Of a stretch of DNA of 42,158 bases, positions 26,832-31,950 are shown in pieces. Position 1 is the first letter of the stretch; each line of letters begins with the position of its first letter. The notes under the pieces are model-generated. The model had not been told where the DNA came from, made no database searches, and saw only the letters and a program-made list of their open reading frames with translations. Both the position numbers and the translations under genes were made by a program. Origin of the DNA: a virus. The stretch covers positions 1-42,158 of the IMG/VR virus record IMGVR_UViG_3300021378_000055; one strand, written 5' to 3'.

Positions 26832-27803
26832 TTAGTTATCTTGTATTTGTTTTTCAAACTCTCGCAAACGTTTATACACACTTGCTAGTTCAATAATAGT
26901 AGGCCATGCTTTAAGCAAGTATTGCATACTGCCTTCCACACGCCCAAATGCACGGATAATCTGTTGCATAACACCTAGTGTTACTGCACCTGCCACAATA
27001 GCTGGTGCTAAGAATACATATGCACTTAGTACGTTTGCTTGTAGATATGCAACTCTGCCAATATTGAAATACATATAACGCAAGTAACTGGTAAAGTGAA
27101 TACTGCGAACATCTTCAAATAATTCTTGTATTGACTTGGGACGAATTGTTTCATCATCTTCAGCAATAACCAAAATCTTACGATATGCCGCTTCTTTCTT
27201 TTGCAAGTCATATTCTACGCCAACAAGACGCAACAGCCAACCGAGCGCAACAAGAAATAATGTACCGCCAATACTCCACACAAGAGCACCAGTAACAAGA
27301 CCATATTGCCAGTCTCCAAAGAAGAAGATTGGAATACCCACACTTAGTCCCAATAGAATTGGAACAAACTGTACCAATACCATAATTGATTCAATAAAGC
27401 TGGTACCCAAGCCTTCCATAATACGTGTGAATTTAATTGTGTCTTCTTGTACACGTTGAGCGGCGCCTTCGATTGTCCGAGCTTTATCATATACACTATG
27501 ATACCACTCAACCATTGCAGAACGCCAACGGAACAAATAGTGTGCCGTGAAATAAGCTACTACGACTGCAATGCCCACATAAATTGCCGCTAGATAGATA
27601 AACGTACCCAAGCTAGCCCAATACTCTCCAATAGTAATTGCGTTAGGTTGGCCTAATGCTTTTTGGATCATATCGTAAAATTGTCCAAACCATTCGTTAA
27701 TCTTAACGTCGATTTGTACCTGTATCCATAGTGAACTTAGAATAGCCGTTGAACCCAGCCATGACCATAGCAACCATTCCCGGGTTGTAAAAAATCTAAA
27801 CAT
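26832..27803 (-). CDS. SbmA/BacA-family peptide/cobalamin transporter-like membrane protein
   Basis: This 323-residue protein aligns along its length with the second to last parts of E. coli SbmA: HYLFRWRSAMVEWYHS (SbmA HYVFRWRTAMNEYYMA), RTIEGAAQRVQEDTIKF (RHIEGAAQRVQEDTMRF), EAAYRKILVIAEDDETIRP (EAAYRKELVYGEDDATRAT), RYMYFNIGRVAYLQAN, IVAGAVTLGVMQQI and SVYKRLREFEKQI. Several membrane helices are evident. The first 80 or so residues of SbmA are absent. Family role: proton-driven inner-membrane import of peptides, bleomycin-like compounds and vitamin B12; no ABC nucleotide domain. A sigma70 promoter (27853-27880) and a terminator isolate it as one gene. Confidence 0.9.
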   Translation of the reverse strand: MFRFFTTREWLLWSWLGSTAILSSLWIQVQIDVKINEWFGQFYDMIQKALGQPNAITIGEYWASLGTFIYLAAIYVGIAVVVAYFTAHYLFRWRSAMVEWYHSVYDKARTIEGAAQRVQEDTIKFTRIMEGLGTSFIESIMVLVQFVPILLGLSVGIPIFFFGDWQYGLVTGALVWSIGGTLFLVALGWLLRLVGVEYDLQKKEAAYRKILVIAEDDETIRPKSIQELFEDVRSIHFTSYLRYMYFNIGRVAYLQANVLSAYVFLAPAIVAGAVTLGVMQQIIRAFGRVEGSMQYLLKAWPTIIELASVYKRLREFEKQIQDN

Positions 27804-27894: not shown

Positions 27895-28383
27895 TTAGAA
27901 GCCGCCGACAGGTCTCGGCATTTCAGCAATTGGTTTTACTGGTTGTGGTATAGATTCCATTGGGACAAATAGCCAAGAGTCTTTTGTTCCTGAATTGCCT
28001 TTTTTAAATTTACCAACAACGCCTAGTCCTTGGTTTGCAGCAGCTTCTTCCTGTAGCTTTTTCATAGTCTTTTTGTTTTCATCGGTGTAATCGATTCTGT
28101 AAAATTTAGGATCACGATCTTCATCATCAGGATCCTCCGTTCTAGCAACAAAGAAAATATCAGGCTTTGACATCTCTACCCATAACACTTTCACGTCGTG
28201 ATTTGGTACTCCGTCAATAGGCGTACCTTGAAGTGCAAATATAGAATATGCAGTAAATACGCTACTCGATAGTATTAATGGCGTAAGAATAAAAAGAATT
28301 AAATAATTCTTTTTACTGACAATCAATGCATATATACTGACTGTTGCTAGTAAAAATAATAAAATAAATGCAATATTTAACAT
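27895..28383 (-). CDS. Membrane-anchored protein of the stator-like operon
   Basis: The start is set at ATG 28383, one base after the upstream stop and with GGAGAAC as ribosome-binding site, giving 162 residues. Two membrane helices (about 4-21 and 28-50) precede a soluble tail with acidic and Lys-rich parts (RTEDPDDEDRDPKFYRIDYT) and a proline-rich end. It is the third gene of the unit with the MotB/ExbD-like and MotA/ExbB-like genes. No family is recognised; a structural or regulatory subunit of the same complex is the natural reading. Confidence 0.65.
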   Translation of the reverse strand: MLNIAFILLFLLATVSIYALIVSKKNYLILFILTPLILSSSVFTAYSIFALQGTPIDGVPNHDVKVLWVEMSKPDIFFVARTEDPDDEDRDPKFYRIDYTDENKKTMKKLQEEAAANQGLGVVGKFKKGNSGTKDSWLFVPMESIPQPVKPIAEMPRPVGGF

Positions 28384-28384
28384 G

Positions 28385-29017
28385 TTATTGTTCTCCTGGT
28401 CTGGAAGCTCTAGGGACAATTTTTCCATTGTATTGAAACAATCCTGTAACAAAACCGTCATCGTTAATTGTAAACCCAGGCAAGTTAATAATGTGTCCTT
28501 GATTTTGGATATACACGGTCTTTTTGTAAATTATACGATATGGATTAACCTTTGTAACAACAACTGTTACTGGCATAGGTAACTCTACATTTCTTCGCAT
28601 TGGGTCATTGCGTACACCGTACCCATGCACTGCTACATGAACATCTCCAGTGTATTCTCCACGTATTGTAATTGTTTCTGTGTTAACTCTTATGAGCTTT
28701 CGAACACCATCAACTTCAATTATATCGTTTGAGGTTCCTAGGTCGTCACGATCTAAATGCAACGGAGCCTGTTGCTTGTTGCTAAATCCAACTGGATTGC
28801 TGTTACCTAGCTGCACCCATAAATCAATATCATCAGCTGACTCATCTGGCCAGTTGACAGTTATCAAATATTCTGCTTTAGACGGAATATCACCTTGTTT
28901 CGAAATAGGATTAATTAACAAAAATGCAATAATAAAAAGCATAACAAATCCAATAAGGACATTGAATAGCAAGTCATTAAATGCTAAATTGCTACTACCC
29001 CTGCGATTTGATTTCAT
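28385..29017 (-). CDS. MotB/TolR/ExbD-like single-pass protein with periplasmic beta domain
   Basis: This 210-residue protein has a basic N-terminus, Asp15 just before the only membrane helix (FNDLLFNVLIGFVMLFII, about 13-30), and a large predicted periplasmic domain. The Asp-before-helix layout equals MotB (YADFMTAMMAFFLVMWLI) and TolR/ExbD, where this Asp carries protons. The outer domain has DIDLWVQLGN and later GEYTGDVHVAVHGYG, like YfaP/DUF2135 beta-sandwiches, and not an OmpA peptidoglycan-binding domain. Its ATG shares a base with the upstream stop (TAATG), as expected for a two-subunit channel. Confidence 0.7.
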   Translation of the reverse strand: MKSNRRGSSNLAFNDLLFNVLIGFVMLFIIAFLLINPISKQGDIPSKAEYLITVNWPDESADDIDLWVQLGNSNPVGFSNKQQAPLHLDRDDLGTSNDIIEVDGVRKLIRVNTETITIRGEYTGDVHVAVHGYGVRNDPMRRNVELPMPVTVVVTKVNPYRIIYKKTVYIQNQGHIINLPGFTINDDGFVTGLFQYNGKIVPRASRPGEQ

Positions 29018-29451
29018 TAGAAACTCTCACTAACAATAATTTGTACCTTTAATGCTAAACTAACAATTAACCCAGCCAATGTAGTTAGAAGTGCGGTACT
29101 CATGCCGGCTGCCATATCAGATATAACTTTTCTCATACTATTGACATCACTAGGGTCGATATCAGCAAAGCTACTTCCTAACATCATCATAAATCCGATT
29201 ACAGTGCCTATCATACCAACTGTCATAGCGGACTCTGCAATAAACCATGTATAGTCAAAGTTGTTTTGTTTTTTATACGTAATGTATCCAATTAAAATTG
29301 AGCCTATAACCAAAAGTGACATGATTAAAAAACTTAAATATGTTACATCATTCTCAATAATAAAATTAATAGCGGAAAAACTCACCGCAATACCAACCAA
29401 GACTGTTTGTATTGTAACAACTAACCACCACATCATGAATCTTTTATCCAT
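29017..29451 (-). CDS. MotA/TolQ/ExbB-like proton-channel protein
   Basis: This 144-residue protein has four predicted helices (8-30, 38-59, 72-94, 114-138). Helix 3 reads AESAMTVGMIGTVIGFMMML and helix 4 ALLTTLAGLIVSLALK, matching the two channel helices of TolQ/ExbB (GLLGTVxG and ALxxTAxGLxxAI) with conserved Gly/Thr. It lacks the long cytoplasmic loop of TolQ/ExbB and is shorter (about 230-245 residues in those). It heads the operon with the MotB/ExbD-like gene. Ribosome-binding site TAGGAG; a late promoter within the palindrome 29498-29513. Confidence 0.75.
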   Translation of the reverse strand: MDKRFMMWWLVVTIQTVLVGIAVSFSAINFIIENDVTYLSFLIMSLLVIGSILIGYITYKKQNNFDYTWFIAESAMTVGMIGTVIGFMMMLGSSFADIDPSDVNSMRKVISDMAAGMSTALLTTLAGLIVSLALKVQIIVSESF

Positions 29452-29497
29452 AAGTAATTTCTCCTATTTTAGATAGAGCATCCCTACCTCATCATTA

Positions 29498-29513
29498 GTA
29501 TTTAGCTAAATAC
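29498..29513. promoter_or_regulatory. Palindromic bidirectional late promoter
   Basis: The 16-base sequence GTATTTAGCTAAATAC is a perfect palindrome. Each half is the late-promoter variant GCTAAATAC. It sits between the divergent ATGs at 29451 (minus, stator-like operon) and 29531 (plus, gp14-gp15 unit). Confidence 0.75.
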
Positions 29514-29530
29514 AATATAAGGAAATATTT

Positions 29531-30598
29531 ATGCCAAGACTAAGTTTATATAAACCCTACAAAGGAAATGATTTTAAATTCATGGACAGAAATATCCGTG
29601 AACAATTTGATATTGGTGGCGTGGGAGTGCATGTACACAAGTATCTAGGCCCAAAGCCAGTAAACGATAGTTCGGATCCAAGTGAGCCAAACTACGGAAG
29701 CGGGTATGAACAAGATCATTTATTTGGCGAAGAAACAAATCCAGATGGGAACATTGACGAGACCAAAATACAAGATTTACTGTTTATGGAAAATCGTGAT
29801 CGTAAATATGATCCAGACGTGTTTGATTTGCGTGGCGTGTACAATGTAAGTGACAATGATTTTGATTTAAGTCAATTTGGTTTATTTTTAACAAACGATA
29901 CATTGTTTATTACTTTCCATACAAATGACATGGTGGAGAAATTGGGACGTAAACTAATGCCGGGCGATGTTTTAGAGTTGCCACATTTGCGTGATGACCT
30001 ATTATTAAATCATGACAGAGATGCAGTCAACAAGTTTTATGTGGTACAAGATGCCAATCGTGGCAGTGAAGGTTTTAGTCAAACTTGGTATAGTCACATT
30101 TGGCGTGTTAAAGTGGCTCCCCTAACAGACACACAAGAATACGCAGACATCCTTGGAACTGCAAGTGATCCAGATAGCTTGAAGCAGAGTTTAAGTAGTT
30201 ATGCTACTGAAATTAATATTAGCGAGTCAATTATCAAAAGTGCTGAAATTGCTGATCCAAAGGGATTGCCCCTAATAGATCATCTGTTTGGTACAGACCA
30301 AGAAGATGATTCATATCAGCACGGCGAAACATTGAGTACTGGAGATCAATTTCCAGCAAATCCAAATGATGGAGATTACTTTGTACGTAGTGACTTCCAG
30401 CCTGAAAGATTATTTGTATTTCGTGGTAGTAGATGGCAACGTCTATATGACATGGAAAATAAAAATACTTGGAGCGATAGAACATATAATGCAAGTCAGT
30501 TCATAGAGAACAATAATACCACAGTTGTAGACAATCAAGAATTTCCTGAGCGCCAGGCGCTTAGTAAAGTTATCAAACCAAAGAGCGATTTTGAATAA
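29531..30598 (+). CDS. 14: Neck protein gp14
   Basis: This 355-residue protein has the gp14 hallmarks: FMDRNIREQFDIGGVGVHVH followed by KYLGPK, then RDRKYDPDVFDLRGVYNVSD, DFDLSQFGLFLTNDT, and LMPGDVLELPHLRDD. T4 gp14 is 256 residues. The surplus includes a segment near residue 280 (NPNDGDYFVRSDFQPERLFV, then FRGSRWQRLYD) of the same G-D-Y...G-x-x-W type as in the sheath insert. Known role: tail-side neck component. Ribosome-binding site AAGGAAA; it shares bases with gp15 (TAATG). Confidence 0.9.
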   Translation: MPRLSLYKPYKGNDFKFMDRNIREQFDIGGVGVHVHKYLGPKPVNDSSDPSEPNYGSGYEQDHLFGEETNPDGNIDETKIQDLLFMENRDRKYDPDVFDLRGVYNVSDNDFDLSQFGLFLTNDTLFITFHTNDMVEKLGRKLMPGDVLELPHLRDDLLLNHDRDAVNKFYVVQDANRGSEGFSQTWYSHIWRVKVAPLTDTQEYADILGTASDPDSLKQSLSSYATEINISESIIKSAEIADPKGLPLIDHLFGTDQEDDSYQHGETLSTGDQFPANPNDGDYFVRSDFQPERLFVFRGSRWQRLYDMENKNTWSDRTYNASQFIENNNTTVVDNQEFPERQALSKVIKPKSDFE

Positions 30599-31950
30599 TG
30601 GGACAATATTTTTACGACAAACAATTAAGAGGATATATCCAACAGTTTATTAGGCTGTTCGGTGGCTTTAATGTACAGATGGGACTTAATAATGACAGGC
30701 TTCCAATTTTTCAGAAGGTTCCTGTACGTTATGGCGACATTAACCGTATGGCCGCGCATATTACTCGTGAAAACAGTGAGAACATCGTAAACACTGTTCC
30801 TCTTATTAGCTGTTATGTTACAGATTTAAATATGGCGCCGGAAAGAAGAATACACCAAGAGCATGTTGACAAGGTACAAGTTTTTGAGAAAAAGAAAAAC
30901 GATGTCACTGGAAAATATGAGAATGATGTAGGTGCTAGATATGAAGTACAAAGATATATGCCAGTACCATACAACCTTATTATGAACTGTGACATATGGA
31001 CATCTAACACTGACCAAAAATTACAACTATTGGAACAAGTTATGGTACTTTTCAATCCAACACTTAACATCAGAACAAATGACAACGCTGTAGACTGGAG
31101 TAGTTTAAGTTATGTGGAAATGACAAATAGTATTTGGAGTAGTAGAAGTATTGGTAGCACAATTGATGACATCATAGATGTTTCTACATTAACATTTACT
31201 ATGCCAATATGGATCAACCCTCCTGCTAAAGTTAAACAGCAAAAACTTATTCATACCCTCATAAATGAATTATATAGCTTAGATGACCAGAATTTAGATT
31301 TGTTTAGAGAAGATAAACCATTTAATACAGAAACGTTGCAATACACAGTTGTTACATTTGACCAAATGAAATTGGAATACAATGATGGGTCAGCATCATT
31401 ACTTAATGAAAAAGGTTCAATACTCGATGAAAATGGCAATCCTTTAGAATGGAAGAATTATTTAACTCAGTTTGGAGAATTGCGTCCGGGTATCAGTCAA
31501 ATTAGACTACGCAAGAGTAATGACCCAAGTGACAAAGATAATGACATTATTGGGAAGCTGTCAGAGACTTCTAATCCAAATATTATCAGTGTTGATATTG
31601 ATACTGATACATTACCACTGAATACAGTGAATGCAGTTGACGCAGTTCTTGATCCAACCAGAAATTATCCTGGAGACGGAGTTGTTCCCCCAGCTAGCCA
31701 AGGTCAACGTTATTTGCTCACAGGTGATATTCCACAAGGACCAATTTGGCCAGGCTTAACTGCTGTGACAAATGATATTATCGAATTTAATGGAAGTGCA
31801 TGGACGATATCATTTGACTCTGCATCCAATACTAATCAACAATATATGCTCAACAATAGCACCGGAAATCAACTTGAATGGAGCGGTACTGAATGGTTTA
31901 ATAGTTTTGAAGGAATATATAAACCAGGTTTCTGGAGACTATATTTATAA
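30598..31950 (+). CDS. 15: Tail completion and sheath stabiliser gp15
   Basis: This 450-residue protein starts MGQYFYDKQLRGYIQQFIRL like gp15 (MFGYFYNSSFRRYATLMGDL), with PVRYGDINRMAAHI, RYMPVPYNLIMNCDIWTSNT and QLLEQVMVLFNPTLNIRTN. T4 gp15 is 272 residues. The additional C-terminal 180 residues hold beta-type repeats (GQRYLLTGDIPQGPIWPGL, then EFNGSAWTISF, WSGTEWFNSF) of the same kind as the sheath insert. Known role: caps the tail end and binds the neck. The stop is 3 bases before the next ATG region (TAAATG). Confidence 0.9.
   Translation: MGQYFYDKQLRGYIQQFIRLFGGFNVQMGLNNDRLPIFQKVPVRYGDINRMAAHITRENSENIVNTVPLISCYVTDLNMAPERRIHQEHVDKVQVFEKKKNDVTGKYENDVGARYEVQRYMPVPYNLIMNCDIWTSNTDQKLQLLEQVMVLFNPTLNIRTNDNAVDWSSLSYVEMTNSIWSSRSIGSTIDDIIDVSTLTFTMPIWINPPAKVKQQKLIHTLINELYSLDDQNLDLFREDKPFNTETLQYTVVTFDQMKLEYNDGSASLLNEKGSILDENGNPLEWKNYLTQFGELRPGISQIRLRKSNDPSDKDNDIIGKLSETSNPNIISVDIDTDTLPLNTVNAVDAVLDPTRNYPGDGVVPPASQGQRYLLTGDIPQGPIWPGLTAVTNDIIEFNGSAWTISFDSASNTNQQYMLNNSTGNQLEWSGTEWFNSFEGIYKPGFWRLYL

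Follow-up and report, generated by a model that had tools for sequence, protein, structure and literature searches.

The window, that is, the whole stretch of 42,158 nucleotides analysed here, carries a perfect 16-bp palindrome in a 79-bp gap, which has a MotA/ExbB-like gene on the minus strand at one side and, at the other, the plus-strand gene of a gp14-like virion protein. The features around this junction are as follows.

27895..28461, minus strand: stator-like operon gene 3, membrane protein, 188 aa (ORF; conserved third gene in relatives)
28385..29017, minus strand: MotB/ExbD-like partner, 210 aa (12-relative alignment and model)
29017..29451, minus strand: MotA/ExbB/TolQ-like membrane protein, 144 aa, stator-like operon gene 1 (Pfam PF01618, MotA_ExbB, 9.5e-10, above cut-off)
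29460..29465, minus strand: ribosome-binding sequence AGGAGA of the MotA/ExbB-like gene (from sequence)
29498..29513, no strand: 16-bp perfect palindrome GTATTTAGCTAAATAC, two putative late-promoter elements with the central GC common to both
29498..29506, minus strand: putative late promoter element GCTAAATAC of the stator-like operon (kept in lineages L135 and L136 and ahead of the operon at other loci; predicted start near 29493)
29505..29513, plus strand: putative late promoter element GCTAAATAC of the gp14-like/gp15 unit (TAAATA in 37 of 37 non-redundant gp14 loci; predicted start near 29518)
29519..29523, plus strand: ribosome-binding sequence AAGGA of the gp14-like gene (from sequence)
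29531..30598, plus strand: gp14-like virion structural protein, 355 aa (PHROG 11591, 4.6e-91)
30598..31950, plus strand: gp15-like tail sheath stabiliser, 450 aa (Pfam PF16724, 1.7e-26)

The names gp15 and stator, used in the preliminary description, were borne out by the Pfam matches (PF16724 and MotA_ExbB, respectively). The name gp14 is used here for a virion structural protein, as indicated by the PHROG match and the place before gp15, and equivalence to T4 gp14 is only putative. The gp14-like protein was nearest to those of jumbo phages such as PA5oct, 121Q and Atu_ph07, and its INPHARED relatives were distant (<60% identity); the stator gene had no INPHARED relatives.

The stator-like operon is composed of three genes (27895-29451, minus strand), and no convincing PHROG family was found for the second and the third. 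The gene of the 210-aa partner was present in 16 IMG/VR loci, 12 of which were distinct enough for alignment. According to this alignment and the model, the partner has a single N-terminal helix with an invariant Asp15, followed by a beta domain with DDIDLWV. Its fold weakly resembled that of a TerD-like protein (best E 5e-4, TM 0.4), and a PDB sequence search with its alignment gave no match. A homolog of the SbmA/BacA-like peptide transporter is encoded at 26832-27803 on the minus strand (Pfam 2.9e-138), and in relatives it often adjoins the stator operon or gp14.

The palindrome GTATTTAGCTAAATAC had zero mismatches against its own reverse complement and was found as a single copy in the window, which confirms the perfect 16-bp symmetry described before. 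The symmetry alone is unremarkable, because the AT-rich window yields about one 16-bp palindrome by chance (two perfect palindromes of at least 16 bp seen, 1.0 expected from dinucleotide shuffles). The composite TATTTA-N2-TAAATA is rare, with 1 seen and 0.02 expected in the same kind of shuffles of the window. The TAAATA hexamers of the two strands do not overlap and have a 2-bp spacer between them, while the 8-bp T4-style elements GCTAAATA, one per strand, have 2 bp in common, the central GC at 29505-29506. The earlier expression "overlapping centres" is therefore right for the 8-bp elements but not for the hexamers. A scan of IMG/VR for TATTTAGCTAAATACNNTATA gave 8 contigs, of which 6 carried it inside coding sequence of unrelated phages and the others represented two stator lineages. 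In spite of the non-significant symmetry, we rejected a chance origin of the palindrome because of its motif content, its location and its conservation. One more minus-strand TAAATA, at 29526-29531 across the gp14 start codon, was treated as chance since the motif is absent from L004 and L135, which read GATATATG there.

Late promoters of this phage have the core TAAATA. TAAATAC is found about 18-55 bp before the start codons of the tail sheath, tail tube, head-tail adaptor, tail fibre and other virion genes in the window, and the SbmA/BacA gene and several other window genes have sigma70-like promoters of the TTGACA/TATAAT type (TTGACA/T-17-TATA.T) instead. The bare counts of TAAATA and TAAATAC were not above chance in the window, and the motif is distinguished by its position 5' of late genes, not by its total number. 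Within 80 bp upstream, TAAATAC was found for 10 window genes vs 4 in the antisense control, and the same test in related phages gave 18 vs 2, 19 vs 5, 8 vs 3, 11 vs 1 and 9 vs 1. The T4-type late promoter TATAAATA occupies -13 to -6, and the late promoter of phage Aeh1 is CTAAATA (PMC1524935). The motif in our phage shares with both of them the TAAATA core at -11 to -6 (PMC1524935), but differs in that GC, CA or GA typically stands just 5' of the core and C usually follows it. A TATAAATA-like element lies upstream of late genes, placed for a start 6 nt downstream, and the sequence 5' of the gp14 late element is little conserved (6 bp compared, wider by eye), with no conserved -35. Judged by its letters and position, the window motif is the expected T4-type late element. 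With a scoring matrix built from 94 related promoters, the plus and minus halves of the palindrome scored 12.7 and 11.8, near the median of 13.1. Neither around the gp14/stator junction nor just upstream of the stator operon was a sigma70-like promoter detected.

For comparison of the gp14 side, 80 relatives were fetched, near-duplicates were removed and a third stator lineage was added, which gave 37 loci; gene starts in the relatives were taken from a simple ORF caller. TAAATA was present 11-31 bp before gp14 in every one of these non-redundant loci. The gene divergent from gp14 varied among them, being of phrog_11903 type, SbmA-like, a small gene or the stator operon. Most of the non-stator neighbours had a sigma70-like TTGACA on the minus strand close behind the gp14 late promoter, and some SbmA neighbours had a minus late motif 25-33 bp away from it. 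The minus TATTTA at 2-3 bp was found only with stator neighbours. In L063 a minus TATTTA lies 4 bp from the gp14 motif, and we took this pair as chance because the divergent gene carries a sigma70-like box. In the gp14 upstream regions of PA5oct, 121Q, Atu_ph07 and SCTP-2, no motifs abutted at a distance of 2-3 bp.

The search with the 210-aa operon gene (16 loci) included one new gp14/stator lineage, L136/L140, in which the junction reads CTATTTAGCATAAATAC; both motifs are kept, the spacer is 3 and the perfect symmetry is lost. All three gp14/stator lineages keep TATTTA-(2 or 3)-TAAATAC, with spacers of 2, 2 and 3. At four-fold degenerate sites of gp14 the window showed 53% and 51% identity to the other two stator lineages, while TATTTAGC and TAAATAC were unchanged. 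Lineages that carry the motif pair next to gp14 are few (n=3) and may owe the arrangement to common descent. TAAATA precedes the stator operon in 9 of 9 lineages with intergenic space (about 6% chance each); besides the gp14/stator lineages, it was found there in six lineages where the operon has other neighbours. In L142 it lies 4 bp from the operon start codon, which is weak evidence, and in L143, where the operon also has different neighbours, divergent motifs abut again with a spacer of 5.

The comparison supports the earlier proposal of two back-to-back late promoters: three diverged lineages retain both motifs, the plus motif is shared by all gp14 relatives, and the minus one also precedes the stator operon elsewhere. 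Conservation of the palindrome in related phages had been suggested as a check, and here the abutting motifs were found in all gp14/stator lineages, but not the symmetry, which L136 has lost. Because both motifs survive in this non-palindromic third lineage, two abutting promoters are conserved and not the symmetry, so that perfect symmetry is not the point of the site. We are fairly confident that the palindrome represents T4-type late promoters in a bidirectional pair, with one outward-facing -10-like element GCTAAATA(C) probably formed by each half.

An alternative would be a promoter in the plus half alone, with the minus TATTTA arising by chance or from the symmetry itself and the stator operon expressed from elsewhere. 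The plus motif is indeed universal in the gp14 relatives and the minus motif is missing with most other neighbours; the minus score is also lower, since the plus/minus scores in the three gp14/stator lineages were 12.7/11.8, 13.0/9.2 and 16.5/10.2. Also counting against a bidirectional pair, the minus half lacks the downstream TATA which is found after most gp14 promoters, and the last position of the minus motif is G instead of C in L135 and L136. However, all three stator lineages retain the minus motif although their neutral sites are near saturation, TAAATA stands before the operon in other contexts too, and just upstream of the operon a sigma70-like promoter was not found, so we consider a plus-only promoter unlikely. 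An operator, at which a dimeric regulator controls both genes, is much less probable still. The layout would be typical of an operator, with its perfect dyad flanked by two divergent genes, but the inserted base in L136 breaks the symmetry and leaves both late motifs intact, the half-sites are identical to the genome-wide late motif, and the 16-mer has no second copy in the window.

For the bidirectional pair, both start sites were placed with the T4 spacing rule of -13 to -6 (PMC1524935), and the predicted starts, about 29518 (+) and 29493 (-), are 25 bp apart. T4 complexes melt from -12 to +2 (PMC7892883), and the melted bubbles would lie side by side at 29492-29505 and 29506-29519, one per palindrome half. 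Late RNA polymerase with a phage gp55-like sigma would open the right half (about 29506-29519) and produce the gp14-gp15 mRNA from about 29518, or alternatively it would open the left half (about 29492-29505) and produce the stator-operon mRNA from about 29493. The predicted starts leave no room for two polymerases together, so the footprints should overlap and allow one initiation at a time. The sequence, the positions, the motif conservation and the gene context are observed, whereas we infer that both starts are used, which sigma acts there and that the two initiations exclude each other. The back-to-back layout most likely comes from the short intergenic space and the fact that both genes appear to be late, and the exact 16-bp symmetry would be incidental. 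An RNA hairpin or terminator has almost no likelihood: a 6-bp stem could form, but it is worth only -1.1 kcal/mol and has no T-tract, and the palindrome is 5' of both predicted starts and would thus be in neither mRNA.

No sigma was identified in the 42-kb window, which is a fragment, and the gp55 homologs come from relatives: three large ones, of 103-149 kb, have a gene for a gp55-like sigma about 300 aa long (5e-24 to 1.5e-22). By eye, the C-termini of these sigmas (L092-L094) have no evident T4-type clamp-binding segment. Models of gp45 were silent in the relatives and in the jumbo phages 121Q, PA5oct and Atu_ph07, with the T4 control positive, though absence from a profile search does not prove absence of a clamp. 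In T4 the loaded clamp activates one direction only, and the polarity is fixed by the loaded strand (PMC2988020). The two units had been proposed to compete for, or share, one sigma/clamp assembly. Competition is plausible from the predicted 25-bp spacing, but a single shared clamp is unlikely, because the T4 clamp activates one direction and no gp45-type clamp was detected in the relatives. The balanced output which was expected from this finds no support, since the plus half outscores the minus half in all three lineages, and steric exclusion should give anti-correlated output, not balance. The strict polarity of T4 clamp activation (PMC2988020), together with footprints that must be mutually exclusive, might suggest a switch under selection, whose direction is picked by how loaded clamps or factors, or passing replication forks, are oriented, so that neck and stator genes alternate. 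We regard such a switch as improbable, given the silent gp45 models, the gp55-like proteins without an evident T4-type C-terminal clamp epitope, and ordinary compaction, which accounts for the layout.

A 1989 study in Virology by Scarlato and colleagues reportedly deals with divergent transcription of T4 base plate genes from overlapping promoters. In T4 a 50-bp gap separates the divergent genes 26 and 51, with TATTTATAAATA in its middle, and overlapping late boxes in both directions are annotated in GenBank M77695 and MZ726795. The spacer at the 26/51 junction was 0 in 7 of 8 sampled records from five groups (two records being T4-like Tequatroviruses), and 8 in a Krischvirus. The palindromic core TATTTATAAATA was seen at this junction in T4, in the sampled Tequatro-, Mosig-, Kanagawa- and Jiaodavirus and in an Acinetobacter phage. 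Like 26/51, the window junction places a back-to-back pair of late -10 elements between late genes of opposite direction, and the pair is kept in relatives (three lineages here), but the genes are different, the phages are only distantly related, and the spacer is 2 or 3 with starts predicted 25 or 26 bp apart, compared with 0 and 23 bp in T4. In six related marine phages, abutting motifs (spacer 0-10) occurred 3 times in 35 divergent junctions (3.7 kb) vs 5 times in the remaining 561 kb or so. Since the abutting-pair design recurs both at T4 26/51 and at divergent junctions of relatives, it is an already known design, with a slightly wider spacer here. On sequence grounds, the palindrome is very probably a real bidirectional late-promoter unit, with two abutting late start signals, and largely ordinary.

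Bacterial bidirectional promoters have a symmetric -10 region and divergent starts close together, with 10, 18 or 23 bp favoured, and their polymerases exclude each other, which matters only if one direction is strong (Warman et al., NAR 2026, PMC12825309). The late pair may resemble them in its symmetric -10 region, its closely spaced predicted starts and the predicted polymerase exclusion. The differences are that those promoters use host sigma70 and this pair presumably a phage late sigma, that the hexamers here abut without shared bases, and that the predicted distance is 25 bp.

Compact back-to-back late promoters, known at T4 26/51, thus seem to exist also in an uncultured marine T4-related phage group, and the junction, as a minimal two-way late promoter, could be a natural test case for whether polymerases exclude each other. 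It also suggests that the stator-like operon is late and co-timed with virion assembly genes, which would narrow the possible roles of this unexplained operon. The operon may be a more interesting object than the adjacent promoter pair.

Other divergent junctions were also noted. A second divergent late pair in the window, at 1415-1481, has the form TATTTA-27-TAAATA, and an identical 27-bp spacer was present in G002 (L095) and G009 (L119). The relative G002 has at another divergent junction a perfect 20-bp palindrome TATTTATTCTAGAATAAATA (L101:10618-10637), in which the minus motif and the called start codon overlap. In many of the loci L005-L082, the gp14 late promoter has immediately behind it the sigma70-like -35 TTGACA that serves the divergent gene, which makes an early/late back-to-back pair.
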